Shown here one piece after another: positions 6,183 through 34,019 of a stretch of 34,199 nucleotides of DNA. Below the pieces are notes generated by a model. The model made no database searches and was not told where the DNA came from. It saw nothing but the letters and a program-made list of their open reading frames with translations. The translations under genes and the position numbers were made by a program. How positions within the stretch are numbered: position 1 is the first letter of the stretch; every line of letters starts with the position of its first letter. Origin of the DNA: Candidatus Nanoarchaeia archaeon. Lineage in GTDB: Archaea; Nanobdellota; Nanobdellia; SCGC-AAA011-G17; GW2011-AR17. The stretch is taken from the NCBI GenBank assembly GCA_028706745.1, contig JAQTVM010000016.1, positions 1-34,199 on the forward strand, written 5' to 3'.

Positions 6183-6803
6183 TTACCAGAACCTGTGCTT
6201 GTACTTGGTTATTACTGCTTTCTCATCATCGCACCAGTTGTCAAACCTGAAGCAGGCGCGGTGATGGAACATGACGCAATCTGGGTTGTTTGAATGCTCT
6301 GCATAAAACATATGCCCGAATTCGTGGAGCAGGGTGCTTTCAAGGCATTCCCTGTATTGTGAATATGCAATTATGATGCTGTTGTCTCTCCTGTTTGCAA
6401 GCCCCTGCGTTGTTTCAGCATCTGCCTTGTTTGAATCAGGAATTTCAGGAACAAAGAATAAGGAGATGTCTGCGTTATTCTCAAGGCATTCGTCCTTGCT
6501 TTCGGCTGTTTTTTCGCTCATGACCCTGAACACAATGTTAAACTCATCCCTGTATTCTTCCCTTGCATTCTCAAATGCTGCTCTTGAATTGATTGCTTGT
6601 TTTCTTGTAAGGGAATTTTCATAGCATAATTCTATGCTTATATCCGCTTCTCCTTCAGTGCCCAGCAATGCATTTCTTATTGTGCAGTAAGCGGTGTTTG
6701 TTGCATAATACAGGTTATAATGCCTGTCAATCTGCGTTGCTGCAATTGTTCCAATTCCCAGGGCGCCTGCCGCAATCAATGCAATATTTCTTTTCTTTAC
6801 CAT
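6183..6803 (-). CDS. Metzincin-like metalloprotease, paralogue 1
   Basis: A 206-residue protein with an N-terminal hydrophobic segment (NIALIAAGALGIGTIAA) that should anchor or export it. The active-site stretch is HEFGHMFYAEH near residue 160, the three-His HExxHxxxxxH zinc motif of metzincins, followed by DCVM as in archaemetzincins (CxM). Differences from archaemetzincin: Tyr replaces the Gly at position 8 of the motif, the Cys after the third His is absent, and only one late Cys (NWCDDE) remains of the CxxC pair. It ends in YKHRFW. It overlaps the upstream paralogue by 7 bases, so translation is probably coupled. The protease role is inferred; the substrate is unknown. Confidence 0.75.
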   Translation of the reverse strand: MVKKRNIALIAAGALGIGTIAATQIDRHYNLYYATNTAYCTIRNALLGTEGEADISIELCYENSLTRKQAINSRAAFENAREEYRDEFNIVFRVMSEKTAESKDECLENNADISLFFVPEIPDSNKADAETTQGLANRRDNSIIIAYSQYRECLESTLLHEFGHMFYAEHSNNPDCVMFHHRACFRFDNWCDDEKAVITKYKHRFW

Positions 6804-7432
6804 AGCCTCACCTTGTATTTCTCTATGGTTTCCCGCTCTTCATCGCACCACTGCAGCGGGCTTGTTGTGCTGCGGTAATGCATATAGCATCTCTCATCAT
6901 CAGTATGTTCTGCGTAAAACAAGTGCCCTATCTCGTGGAGCATTACGTCCCTTACTTCTTCAGTTTCCATTCGCGCGACAACCTGTATGGAATTTGCAGC
7001 AAGGCTTGAAAGCCCGATATTGCACTCATTTTCCTGCTGGTAAATGCGGCTCACGCAGTACAAGTTTATGCTCGCTTCCCTGCTTCCAATTTCCCTCAAA
7101 TAAAACATGCTAATATTTTCAGGCAGCCCTCTTGCGCCTGAATCAATCATATTGAACTTAATGCCGAACTGCCGCAGCATTTCATCCTCTGCCATTGAGT
7201 ATGCATTGTAGCATCTGTCTATATCCTCTCTTTGCAGGAATCCGTCGTAGTAAACTGCAATAGGGATTTCAACAATTTCTTCCCTGTCAAAATCATTGAA
7301 AATGTTTCTTGCTGTGCAGTATGCGTAATTAACAATGCGCTTGTCTCCTGCATAATAATTGCAGGTTGAAACTCCGCCAAGCAGCCCTGCGATGCCTAGG
7401 GCGGCGCCTATTAGTGCTTTTTTTACCCCCAT
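6797..7432 (-). CDS. Metzincin-like metalloprotease, paralogue 2
   Basis: A 211-residue paralogue with an N-terminal membrane segment (KKALIGAALGIAGLLGGVST), the zinc motif HEIGHLFYAEH, then RCYM, QWCDEE and a C-terminal YKVRLW. A shared region near residue 40 (YAYCTARN) matches the other two copies. A TATA-like box (cttataaat, 7455-7463) in the 36-base gap behind paralogue 3 lies about 27 bases from ATG 7432, so I prefer this start; ATG 7441 is the alternative and adds three residues. This promoter could drive paralogues 2 and 1 and the methyltransferase independently. Confidence 0.75.
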   Translation of the reverse strand: MGVKKALIGAALGIAGLLGGVSTCNYYAGDKRIVNYAYCTARNIFNDFDREEIVEIPIAVYYDGFLQREDIDRCYNAYSMAEDEMLRQFGIKFNMIDSGARGLPENISMFYLREIGSREASINLYCVSRIYQQENECNIGLSSLAANSIQVVARMETEEVRDVMLHEIGHLFYAEHTDDERCYMHYRSTTSPLQWCDEERETIEKYKVRLW

Positions 7433-7476
7433 AAATTGCATTTTAAATTAGAAGCTTATAAATCTTATTATTATGA

Positions 7477-8112
7477 TTACCAAATCTTGTGCTTGAACAT
7501 CCTTATTGTGCTTATTGTTTCATCGCACCATTCAAGTTCAGGATTGCCCGGGCTTGTGCTTCTGTTCATGTAGCAGTTCTCCCCTTCTGTGTGCCCTGCA
7601 TAGAAAAGGTGCCCAATTTCATGAATAAGTATGTTCTTTATTGTAACAGAACTGTAATATTCCGAATATACGAAAACAACATTTGAAGTAGGGTCTGCAT
7701 ACCCTATGGAGCTGTCATTCTTAAGCCAGCATTTCTTGTTTGTGAAAACAATTGCCATGTCATAATCACTGCTTATTGCTTCAAATGAATGCAAATAAAC
7801 CTGCCTTGGAATCGCTATTTCTTTCGGCTCGCTCATATGGATGCTGATTCCGAATTCCTTAAGGTATTCAGCCCAAACATCCGATGCTGCTTCAGAGCAG
7901 TTTTCCCTTGATTCTTCGTCAAGCTCATTGTCAATGTAAACTGCGGCGCTGACTCTTACAATATCATTCCTTTCAAATCCTTCTGCAGCATATCTTGCCG
8001 GGCAATATAGGTGGTTTGTCAGATAGCTGTCGATGACAGTGTTGTCCAAGGCAAGAACATTTGCAACAAGCCCCCCGGCAATCATCAAGGATGCGTGGGT
8101 TGTGCTTTTCAT
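7477..8112 (-). CDS. Metzincin-like metalloprotease, paralogue 3
   Basis: A 211-residue paralogue. A weakly hydrophobic N-terminus (ASLMIAGGLVANVLAL) may be a signal peptide or anchor. The zinc motif HEIGHLFYAGH is followed by NCYM, ELEWCDET and a C-terminal FKHKIW. The conserved early segment is HLYCPARYA. It starts 3 bases after the stop of the metallo-beta-lactamase gene, so the two share a transcript. Sequence divergence among the three copies is large outside the motifs, which points to an old duplication rather than a recent one. Confidence 0.75.
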   Translation of the reverse strand: MKSTTHASLMIAGGLVANVLALDNTVIDSYLTNHLYCPARYAAEGFERNDIVRVSAAVYIDNELDEESRENCSEAASDVWAEYLKEFGISIHMSEPKEIAIPRQVYLHSFEAISSDYDMAIVFTNKKCWLKNDSSIGYADPTSNVVFVYSEYYSSVTIKNILIHEIGHLFYAGHTEGENCYMNRSTSPGNPELEWCDETISTIRMFKHKIW

Positions 8113-8781: not shown

Positions 8782-10044
8782 TCATAAAGAATTCAAGTCA
8801 GCTTTCTCTTCGTTTCCAGACTTCATATCCCTTATTGTGACTTTCCCTTCCTTCAAGTCTTTCTCTCCGACAATGACTATTTTCCTGGCACCTATTGAGT
8901 TTGCATAGTCAAACTGCTTCATCAGGTTCTTTCCAGCCAAGTCCATCTCGACGTTTGCCTTTTTCCTTAATTTGTTTGCAACTTCCAATGCCCGCTTCAC
9001 GACTGCTTCATTTACGGGAGCAACATAATAATCAACTTCTGGTTTTGCCTCCGGGAGCTTCCCTGATTTCTTAAGGAACAAACTCAATACAACATCCCCC
9101 ATTCCATAGCCGACGCCCGGGCATTTTTCCCCTCCAAAATCAGAAACCAAGTCATCATACCTTCCGCCGCCTGCAATAGCCCTGAATTCCCCTGACTTGT
9201 CAAACACCTCGAACACAGTGCTTGTGTAATAGTCAAAGCCGCGCATTATTGTAAAATCTATTTTGCAGTACTTGAAAATTCCGTATGCATTCAGCCAGCC
9301 GATAAGCTCCATCAATTCCCTGTACCCTTTTTTTCCTGATTCATCAAGTTTTTCTTCTTTTATGTCTGCTATGTCTGACTTGAGCATCACAAGGATATTG
9401 TCTATTGCTTCCTGCTTTACATTCAGGTCTTTCAGTGTGAGTATGAAATCCTTTTCAGACAGCTTATCTTTCTTGTCAATAACTCTGCTTACTTCCTGCA
9501 GTTTTGTTTTTTCAATGCCTGCGTTAAGTATCAAAGATGCAATCAGCTTCCTGTTGTTTAATCTTACATAAAAATCATTTTCAGTGCAGCTGAAGGATTT
9601 CATTATTTCAACAGCGGTTGCAATGACTTCTGCGTCAGCCATCATGCTTTCTGCGCCAAGGCAGTCAACATTCAGCTGAAAAAATTCCCTTAATCTTCCT
9701 GACTGCGGAGCTTCATAGCGCCAGCATCTTGCAATCGAAAACCATTTTATCGGCTTTTGCAGTTCTTTTTGCTTCGCGGCAATCATTCTTGCCAATGTTG
9801 GTGTTAATTCAGGGCGCACTGCAATCTTTTTTCCTGATTTGTCATCAAAGCAGTACATCTGCTCCGGTATTTCAGCGCCTGATTTTAAAGTCCAGAGCTC
9901 TGCAGGCTCAAGCATTGGGCCGTCGAATTCCTGATAGTTGAATTTTCTTGCTGATGATTTCCACGCATTGAAAATTAAGTTAAGCTCATTCATCTCTTTA
10001 GGATAAAAATCCCTTGTTCCCTTAAGCCCTTGGACAGTTGTCAT
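8782..10044 (-). CDS. hisS: Histidyl-tRNA synthetase
   Basis: A 420-residue class II synthetase that charges tRNA-His. Visible are GTRDFYP at the start, the motif 2 region (RCWRYEAPQSGRLREFFQLNVDCLG), the His-specific loop (GGGRYDDLV) with the motif 3 region (GYGMGDVVLSLFL), and the C-terminal anticodon-binding domain (KKANVEMDLAGKNLMKQFDYANSIGARKIVIVG). Length is normal. A good ribosome binding site (gaggtg) lies 4 bases before the ATG. The gene for its own substrate, tRNA-His, lies 70 bases upstream on the same strand, and the spacer between them can fold into alternative hairpins. Confidence 0.97.
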   Translation of the reverse strand: MTTVQGLKGTRDFYPKEMNELNLIFNAWKSSARKFNYQEFDGPMLEPAELWTLKSGAEIPEQMYCFDDKSGKKIAVRPELTPTLARMIAAKQKELQKPIKWFSIARCWRYEAPQSGRLREFFQLNVDCLGAESMMADAEVIATAVEIMKSFSCTENDFYVRLNNRKLIASLILNAGIEKTKLQEVSRVIDKKDKLSEKDFILTLKDLNVKQEAIDNILVMLKSDIADIKEEKLDESGKKGYRELMELIGWLNAYGIFKYCKIDFTIMRGFDYYTSTVFEVFDKSGEFRAIAGGGRYDDLVSDFGGEKCPGVGYGMGDVVLSLFLKKSGKLPEAKPEVDYYVAPVNEAVVKRALEVANKLRKKANVEMDLAGKNLMKQFDYANSIGARKIVIVGEKDLKEGKVTIRDMKSGNEEKADLNSL

Positions 10045-10065: not shown

Positions 10066-10118
10066 GGGCGACAGTCAAAAGCAAGCTTTTGAGCCGCCCT
10101 TTGCTTACGCAAAGGGCG
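10066..10118 (-). promoter_or_regulatory. hisS leader with competing hairpins
   Basis: Hairpin A is a perfect 10-bp stem (10095-10104 with 10109-10118, loop ttac) whose one arm is the 3' end of the tRNA itself. Hairpin B pairs gggcg (minus strand, just downstream of hairpin A's loop) with a second copy of the tRNA 3' end, ctgtcgccc (10066-10074), around the palindrome tcaaaagc/gcttttga (10075-10092). A and B share the gggcg arm and cannot both form. The arms are seen directly; a regulatory or processing role is inference. Confidence 0.6.
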
Positions 10119-10187
10119 ACAGGGGAGAATCGAACTCCCGTCACAAGGTCCACAGCCTCGTATACTAACCACTGTACTACTGCCGCC
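10115..10187 (-). tRNA. tRNA-His (anticodon GTG)
   Basis: The minus strand folds into a full cloverleaf. The acceptor is GCGGCAG with CTGTCGC, the D stem GTAC/GTAT, the anticodon stem CGAGG/CCTTG with loop CTGTGGA, and the T stem GGGAG/CTCCC with loop TTCGATT. The anticodon is GTG. An extra G is encoded before position 1 and faces C73, the G-1:C73 identity pair of tRNA-His. CCA is not encoded. It stands directly upstream of hisS. Confidence 0.95.
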
Positions 10188-14160: not shown

Positions 14161-14426
14161 AAAGCCCGCTTTCAGCATATATTTTCTTATTATTTTGTTT
14201 GGGCATTTCTTCAGGCAGGTTTGACGAGGGGAATGAATTTTGCCTTCCGGAGATGTTGGAAAAATGCATCTTTTTGCCTTGATTTTCTGAAACCTTTTCA
14301 GCAGATTGTCTTGATATTCCAACTCTTGTGAAAATCCTGCGGATTTATTCAAAAATCGAAGATTTTTGGATATCCGAAAATCCCGAAGGATTTTCGAATA
14401 TTTGTGCGAAGAGTTTATGAATAAGA
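14161..14426 (+). repeat. Dispersed direct repeat, copy 1 (with promoter)
   Basis: The two conserved blocks are about 14161-14265 (begins aaagcccgct, contains tgccttccggagatgttgg) and 14407-14426 (cgaagagtttatgaataaga). Both blocks recur in the same orientation and order at 16661-16874; the middle differs. The second block contains the TATA-like box gtttatgaataa, about 25 bases before the ORF6N gene start, so the repeat carries that promoter. Between the blocks lie two hairpins (aaaatc/gatttt at about 14353-14367; cgaaaatcc/ggattttcg at about 14376-14397). The rest of this 330-base gap holds no gene. Confidence 0.7.
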
Positions 14427-14443: not shown

Positions 14444-15382
14444 ATGCAAAAAGAGAAGGATAATTCACCGGCATTAGCCGCTGACAGCATAAGAAGCAGG
14501 ATTTATACAATAAGAGACAGGCAGGTAATGCTTGACTCAGACCTTGCAGAGCTGTATAATGTAAGGCTAAAGCGATTAAACGAGCAGGTTAAAAGGAATA
14601 TAAGCCGATTTCCGCAGGAGTTTATGTTCCAGTTAACAAATTCTGAATTTAATTCTTTAAGGTCGCAATTTGTGATCTTAAACAAAGAAGGAACGCAGGA
14701 GTGCCTTAATGACTTGAAGTCGCAAATTGCGACTTCAAGTTGGGGAGGCAAAAGAAAGCTGCCTTACGCCTTTACAGAGCAGGGAGTGGCCATGCTTTCA
14801 GGCGTCCTAAAAAGCGATATTGCCGTAAGAATGAGCATTCAGATAATAAATGCATTTGTCGCAATGAGGCGATTTATCTCCTCAAATGCCTTGGTATTCC
14901 AGAGATTGGATAATGTTGAGAGAAAGCAGGTTGAGCATGACAAAAAATTTGAGGAAGTATTTGATGCAATACAAAGCAAGGGCATAGAGCCAGAGAAGGG
15001 CATATTTTTTGACGGGCGGGTGGTTGATGCGTATAAGCTTGTTTCAGATGTGATTAGGTCTGCTGAAAAGTCAATAGTTCTTATTGACAATTATGTGGAT
15101 GATTCTGTTTTAGTGCTGTTAACCAAGAGAAAGAAGAATGTGCAGGCTAAGATATTCACTAAACAGATTTCAAAGCAGTTATTGCTTGACGTTGAGAAGC
15201 ATAATTCCCAGTATCCTTTTGTTGAACTAACGGAGTTTAAGCTGTGCCACGACAGGTTTCTTATAATTGATGATAAGGAGGTTTATCATTTTGGGGCTTC
15301 TTTGAAGGATTTGGGCAAGAAGTGGTTTGCGTTTTGTAAGTTTGGGAGAGAGGATTTGGGTATGCTGGAGAGGATTCGGTAG
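14444..15382 (+). CDS. ORF6N-domain protein with PLD-like C-terminal domain
   Basis: A 312-residue protein. Residues about 15-145 form the ORF6N (KilA-N-related) DNA-binding domain: YTIRDRQVMLDSDLAELYNV, QVKRNISRFPQEFMFQL, YAFTEQGVAMLSGVL. A coiled region around residues 150-175 precedes a C-terminal domain that resembles the phospholipase D superfamily (SAEKSIVLIDNYVDDSVLVLL; HDRFLIIDDKEVYHFGASL, an HxR/K-type half site). ORF6N proteins are common on phages and mobile DNA; the role of this fusion is unknown. A TATA-like box in the upstream direct repeat gives a leaderless mRNA. Homologues are widespread, so recent transfer is plausible. Confidence 0.82.
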   Translation: MQKEKDNSPALAADSIRSRIYTIRDRQVMLDSDLAELYNVRLKRLNEQVKRNISRFPQEFMFQLTNSEFNSLRSQFVILNKEGTQECLNDLKSQIATSSWGGKRKLPYAFTEQGVAMLSGVLKSDIAVRMSIQIINAFVAMRRFISSNALVFQRLDNVERKQVEHDKKFEEVFDAIQSKGIEPEKGIFFDGRVVDAYKLVSDVIRSAEKSIVLIDNYVDDSVLVLLTKRKKNVQAKIFTKQISKQLLLDVEKHNSQYPFVELTEFKLCHDRFLIIDDKEVYHFGASLKDLGKKWFAFCKFGREDLGMLERIR

Positions 15383-33902: not shown

Positions 33903-33979
33903 ATTCTTCTTATTGATTTAATTTATTATTTTGAATTCACGGCGGAGCCCTGCCTTTTTTGTGTTTGCATTGATTGACT

Positions 33980-34013
33980 AGAAAGCTTTTGTCACTACGT
34001 TCCAAAGCTTTCT
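33980..34013. terminator. Hairpin beside the right IS end
   Basis: Perfect 10-bp arms agaaagcttt (33980-33989) and aaagctttct (34004-34013) with a 14-base loop, ending 6 bases before the IS terminal repeat. The T run cctttttt lies about 25 bases upstream. It may be a terminator or the palindromic target that the IS chose. Confidence 0.45.
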
Positions 34014-34019
34014 GCTTTC

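Follow-up and report, generated by a model that had tools for sequence, protein, structure and literature searches.

The window, that is, the whole stretch of 34,199 nucleotides of DNA analysed, carries a tRNA-His(GTG) gene on its minus strand, followed after a spacer of about 70 nt by hisS, the gene for the histidyl-tRNA synthetase (Table 1). ARAGORN puts the tRNA at 10186-10114, while the sequence itself sets its ends from G-1 to C73 as tabulated; the match to Rfam RF00005 scores 62.8 bits. Farther along the same strand (6797-8112), two adjacent related ORFs carry a zinc-metalloprotease motif of the HEIGHLFYAxHT type together with hydrophobic stretches at the N-terminus.

A preliminary description of this locus had reported a perfect 10-bp hairpin, a common GGGCG arm and a second CTGTCGCCC between tRNA-His and hisS, and all three were confirmed in the sequence. 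Hairpin 1 (CGCCCTTTGC-GTAA-GCAAAGGGCG, 10 perfect pairs) borrows the CGCCC of tRNA-His itself, and its GGGCG arm also serves hairpin 2. The latter consists of the left arm GGGCGGC, an apical hairpin with a CUUG loop, a CT bulge and the right arm GTCGCCC (10072-10066), which belongs to the second copy of the tRNA 3' end, here called the echo. The space between the echo and hisS is too small for a promoter, so co-transcription of tRNA-His and hisS is plausible; a sigma-70/terminator scan is uninformative for archaea.

Table 1. Features of the tRNA-His/hisS locus in window coordinates.
Feature	Position	Strand	Basis
tRNA-His(GTG), G-1 to C73	10115..10187	-	ARAGORN; Rfam RF00005
CTGTCGCCC copy 1, tRNA 3' acceptor strand, C73 plus one base further	10114..10122	-	sequence
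Hairpin 1, tRNA 3' strand with inverted copy, 10 bp, GUAA loop	10095..10118	-	sequence; fold
Left arm GGGCGGC, imperfect inverted tRNA 3' end, common to hairpins 1 and 2	10093..10099	-	sequence; fold
Core (apical) hairpin TCAAAAG-CTTG-CTTTTGA	10075..10092	-	sequence; fold
Echo, CTGTCGCCC copy 2, right arm of hairpin 2	10066..10074	-	sequence; copy census
Hairpin 2 (echo hairpin), acceptor-stem-like, CT bulge on 3' side	10066..10099	-	fold
hisS (HisRS, 420 aa), neighbour; no demonstrated control by the element	8782..10044	-	Pfam tRNA-synt_His, 1.7e-45

The region is more structured than expected by chance, with a folding energy of -59.5 kcal/mol for the 122-nt stretch as compared to -38.7 +/- 3.7 kcal/mol in shuffles (z = -5.7). 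For the 53-nt core of the spacer, z is -4.4. The three-way pairing claimed for the tRNA 3' strand is real as well: in the unprocessed transcript the 5' acceptor strand of the tRNA can pair with either 3' copy at near-equal predicted energy, and predictions for three congeners give comparable alternatives. The best predicted fold of the window transcript has -61.5 kcal/mol versus -54.5 kcal/mol for the native cloverleaf with trailer hairpins, and the corresponding pairs in the congeners are -53.0/-51.4, -82.1/-79.3 and -69.2/-64.2 kcal/mol. These energies leave out tertiary structure, modification and co-transcriptional folding, and we therefore claim no switch. Moreover, any order of target, inverted target and target (T, inverted T, T) yields such competing folds automatically, so that they are no evidence for the switch of mutually exclusive hairpins put forward in the preliminary description. 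The idea that left-arm mismatches protect tRNA folding found no support, with a median gap in class 1 elements (see below) of 1.6 kcal/mol for the real arms and 0.0 for perfect arms. Palindrome density in the window is barely above that of shuffles (15 vs 5-17). The window also holds two adjacent perfect hairpins in an intergenic region at 14350-14396 (CAAAAATC-GAA-GATTTTTG and CGAAAATCC-CGAA-GGATTTTCG) and a perfect 13-bp palindrome with a 3-nt loop at 14712-14740.

The genomes with the closest HisRS relatives (92, 84 and 83% identity) all have copies behind tRNA-His. There is one copy at locus L002 and there are two in tandem at L004, each array lying directly 5' of hisS, and at both loci the left arm lies where GGGCGGC does in the window. 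At the third (L003, genome G002) two copies follow tRNA-His and hisS lies 1.8 kb away, beyond another coding region and with its own TATA-like sequence upstream. tRNA-His often adjoins hisS in other genera, where the spacer is short (mostly 10-35 nt) and the copy is absent. More broadly, the hisS loci L013-L038 indicate that a tRNA-His immediately upstream of hisS is widespread in this archaeal order, usually with a short spacer. Upstream of tRNA-His, two small adjacent hairpins (CGAAAACC-TTC-GGTTTTCG and AAAAATGC-GAA-GCATTTTT) break the TATA region in L002 (1700-1855) and L004 (180-265); the corresponding TATA region of the window (10270-10188) is without this pair. L002 has one more two-hairpin insertion, immediately 5' of tRNA-His. 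All of this is in the double-hairpin style of the echo elements.

Echo hairpins behind tRNA genes

A copy of the tRNA's own 3' end, defined as the last 10 nt with at most 1 mismatch within 500 nt downstream, was found behind 18 of the 40 tRNA genes in the window's genome (Nanoarchaeota/Woesearchaeales-type). The numbers for three congeners were 9/36, 16/32 and 14/34, the tRNA sets of G001-G003 being less than the full complement of those genomes. When the tails were swapped for those of other tRNAs, 1.6-2.9% matched, part of which were real neighbouring tRNA genes, and the upstream flanks gave 0-1 matches under the same criterion. Throughout the four congeners the echoes at tRNAs always lie downstream and in sense orientation. 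At the genus level, echo hairpins thus stand behind a quarter to half of the tRNA genes, whatever gene comes next. The titled relatives are metagenome assemblies, the congeners are related so that their elements are not fully independent, and for tRNAs with introns some of the isotypes assigned by ARAGORN may be incorrect. The CTGTCGCCC copy in the window is one of dozens of such copies genome-wide, which is beyond what a single window could show. The window spacer is one copy of this family and no special switch for the histidine enzyme.

The members of the family have a common structure of about 45 nt: a stretch imperfectly complementary to the 3' strand of T-stem and acceptor, then a small core, in many cases CGAACGNAGTGAG, and a repeat of tRNA positions ~58-74. 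The left arm occupies about 13 nt 5' of the core. The core mostly spans 17-20 nt; its stem is short, frequently with G.A pairs in tandem, and its loop is small, for instance GAA, AAA, GCA, GAGA or GCAA. At tRNAs the echo repeats 13-18 nt, beginning near A58 of the T-loop and ending one nucleotide beyond the discriminator. The 3' side has a bulge of 2-3 nt, which in many elements corresponds to A58-A59-T60. Taken together, the echo hairpin resembles half a tRNA, made up of acceptor and T-arm, whose T-loop contains an additional hairpin.

Two classes, distinguished by their position, dominate. Class 1 elements start 2-19 nt past the tRNA, with an added unit of about 47 nt for tRNA-Gly, and the window element belongs here as a variant lacking the G.A core. 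Class 2 elements start mostly 44-48 nt past the tRNA, behind an AT-rich spacer whose sequence varies between tRNAs and whose constant length of ~46 nt is about that of one class 1 unit. Their tandem period is about 93 nt, roughly two units. Tandem elements follow, for example, the Ala-CGC, Arg-CCT and Met tRNAs in G002.

Conservation, occurrence and spread

Several lines of evidence address whether the fold is kept. Among 23 aligned elements, two-sided changes occurred at 17 of 19 pairs, and the covariation score was 0.543 compared to 0.177 after shuffling and at most 0.154 in slid controls. This covariation is partly expected because the arms are inverse copies matching different tRNAs, and we therefore give more weight to wobble pairs and mismatches. 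On the tRNA-sense strand, deviations from perfect complementarity kept a wobble pair (G.U) in 31/167 cases and broke it (A.C) in 1/257 (p = 1e-12); with an independent register, set by the other pairs, the counts were 21/85 versus 5/97 (p = 2e-4). As no copying error is commoner than the G.T mispair, the wobble test alone does not separate selection from error-prone fold-back copying. Purine-purine mismatches of class 1 elements concentrate at pairs 4:69 and 49:65 (20/30 vs 2/60), and these position-specific mismatches argue for constraint. Echoes also follow the changes of their own tRNA, with 15 own against 3 other assignments at informative sites, a count that rests on few sites and partly uncertain orthologues. 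At position 67 of tRNA-Pro(CGG), for instance, the tRNA and its echo have both changed from G to A, and the left arm from C to T. The class 2 hairpin of this tRNA is retained in four species, the 46-nt spacer having diverged.

Presence and absence of the elements differ between congeners. Behind tRNA-Gly(GCC), G000 has a 47-nt element that is absent in G001 ahead of similar flanking sequence, and the tRNA-Phe element is found in three species and absent in G002. The covariance model R1 (E<0.001) gave 23 matches in G000 and 5-15 in congeners, and no match in other genera of the same family. It did match in other families of the class, at tRNA-Thr, -Pro, -Glu and -Lys and at Trp/Arg loci whose own ends are echoed, and the core CGAACGNAGTGAG is frequent in elements from those families, too. 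The spread across the class is patchy.

The model also matched away from tRNAs. Four such loci in G000 (L190, L207, L201 and L193) and one in another family (L225) repeat local sequence. At L190 and L207 the echo hairpins lie at the 3' ends of permease-like genes ending DALRYE, where they create new stop codons; L207 has two in tandem, and L219 in G003 is a relative of these two sites. The L201 echo lies at a gene start (MKLGGG) in the opposite orientation. Altogether, a target duplication of 13-18 nt was present at 6 of 11 non-tRNA sites; the echo was short or missing, and in no case significant, at L196, L200 and L203-L205. Matches at window positions 33975-34018, L222 and L229 had no echo and were taken as chance. 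Judged from these sequences, the process is not restricted to tRNAs, with tRNA 3' ends as its main place. Two variants from another family (G126) may be intermediate forms: behind the tRNA-Cys of L265 lies the entire T-arm again, in direct orientation and with a T-loop insertion, and behind the tRNA-Asn of L240 an inverted T-arm copy and then an echo.

Origin and upkeep of the echo hairpins

How do such hairpins come to lie behind tRNA genes? The reading we favour, with our confidence evenly balanced, is that these 'tRNA echo hairpins' are a small family of palindromic insertions that duplicate their target and are maintained as single-stranded, probably RNA, hairpins. For the making of the inverted copy and the later role of the hairpin, we infer the following course. 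Insertion would take place just behind a target T, usually the 3' end of a tRNA, taken from its T-loop as far as the first base beyond the discriminator, and would add about 46-47 nt or about double that length. The added piece would comprise T in imperfect inverted form, a short core hairpin and a second T. The tRNA would be left intact and presumably still be cut at the first copy. The order T, T', T with hairpin-forming joints could be the product of two successive fold-back copying steps. Thereafter, the hairpin would most likely be kept as RNA in the tRNA trailer, the alternative being that it serves a putative insertion machinery as a hairpin of single-stranded DNA. The fold appears to be maintained after insertion, as it retains wobble pairs and fixed non-Watson-Crick positions, and the shared core argues that something is inherited or copied between sites. 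Against insertion stands that no insertion enzyme was found, that the Y1 transposase does not track the elements and that several model matches away from tRNAs have no significant echo. In addition, the constant ~46-nt spacing of class 2 and the position-specific mismatches suggest a function beyond passive insertion.

A second explanation, which we regard as possible but doubtful, is that the echo hairpins serve primarily as trailer RNAs with a function of their own. Each would mimic the top half of a tRNA, namely the acceptor and a T-arm whose loop carries a hairpin, would be kept matched to its own tRNA and would act in 3' maturation, in folding or as a decoy for enzymes or nucleases reading the acceptor/T-arm. 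The invariable downstream sense position, the mimicry of acceptor and T-arm with mismatches fixed at the two pairs, the retention of the tRNA-Pro(CGG) hairpin and the co-tracking of tRNA changes (15/18 cases) are all consistent with such a role. However, more than half of the tRNAs have no echo, other genera of the same family have none at all, protein genes have them too, and template switching between close repeats could give the co-tracking. A combination of both ideas, in which target copying in both orientations would create the hairpins and selection would then keep them in several families as tRNA-matched trailer RNAs, serving many tRNAs as custom decoys or backup 3' ends, is offered more tentatively still.

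The preliminary description had alternatively suggested an integration scar at the tRNA 3' end, and this came near the mark. Att sites in the T-loop would leave copies that run from the T-loop to the tRNA end, which is what the echo spans, and integrases recombining there might also account for repeated tandem copies. We nevertheless consider site-specific integration improbable. It accounts for the echo and leaves the inverted left arm, the shared core and the 46-47-nt unit unexplained, as well as the sense-strand wobble bias and the copies at protein genes, and at the tRNAs read there is no cargo between the copies. Distinctly improbable, too, is a pure mutational by-product of repeated snap-back template switching at hairpin-prone tRNA ends, involving neither mobile element nor function. 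The T, inverted T, T order, the two-hairpin insertions upstream of tRNA-His in L002 and L004 and the G.T bias of copying errors fit this process, but a core shared across tRNAs and across families of the class is unexpected, as are position-specific mismatches if errors were random. Highly improbable, finally, is the proposal of the preliminary description that hisS expression, or processing of the tRNA, is coupled to the state of tRNA-His: the competing folds are near in predicted energy, co-transcription is plausible and an acceptor-stem mimic with the G-1:C73 element might in principle be recognised by HisRS, but the same elements follow about half of the tRNAs whatever the next gene, the array persists where hisS is 1.8 kb distant, and other genera keep tRNA-His next to hisS with no echo, an outcome that the preliminary description itself had named as refuting its model. 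The window echo hairpin has no demonstrated role for hisS.

Comparison with known systems

The family of echo hairpins is apparently undescribed. At the gathering threshold Rfam matched only the tRNA in the window, at E<=0.5 it gave no match for echo elements at five loci, and no earlier description was found in a full-text literature search whose scope excluded most subscription journals and preprints. Either reading would be unusual, whether a palindrome takes the sequence of its target into its arms or individual tRNAs each have an RNA hairpin tailored to them. For an archaeal group of which little is known, the elements matter to the annotation of tRNAs, the processing of their 3' ends and the biology of mobile elements, and they illustrate that a local riboswitch-like pattern can prove to be one copy of a genome-wide repeat.

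The closest parallels are REP/BIME palindromes with their RAYT (Y1) transposases, which are likewise short, imperfect, bulged, intergenic, present many times per genome and folded in a strand-specific manner (PMC12306157). Their palindrome is constant, in contrast to echo arms that are rewritten for each host tRNA around an only partly constant core, and echo hairpins have a copy of the target on both sides. The survey of REP/RAYT makes no mention of DPANN archaea or of tRNA genes as sites (PMC12306157). A Y1 transposase as mover was rejected, since PF01797 showed no correlation with the elements, being absent from G000, G062, G084, G126, G176 and G205 and present in many element-free genomes. 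MITE-like non-autonomous elements share the small size of the insertion, the direct target duplication and the presence/absence between relatives, but have constant terminal inverted repeats, whereas the left arm of an echo hairpin complements its own target and varies from site to site. Synthetase-gene leaders (T-box, thrS-type tRNA mimicry) also place a tRNA-like acceptor hairpin a few nt 5' of a synthetase start codon; echoes are not synthetase-specific and have no anticodon mimic. Each of these three readings fails at least one tested defining feature. Were the element an archaeal T-loop tRNA intron, spliced at a BHB motif so as to link tRNA 1-57 with the echo copy, excision between the copies would yield an identical tRNA; the hairpin has one 3-nt bulge on its 3' side.

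Integrase att-site duplications and partial tRNA copies resemble the echoes in duplicating the 3' part of the tRNA from the T-loop on. Echoes differ by their inverted copy and core hairpin, by their occurrence at protein genes and by having no island or cargo between the copies, which are only 30-100 nt apart at the tRNAs read. tRNA 3' ends are a known target of casposons. Casposon/CRISPR-type integration there has short target duplications and tandem growth in common with the echoes (PMC6614799, PMC6977970). The echo insert is a target-complementary palindrome and neither a spacer nor a casposon end, and no fixed ends were seen in echo elements, as opposed to the dedicated ends of casposons. 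Arms rewritten to each host tRNA are predicted by none of the known kinds compared here.
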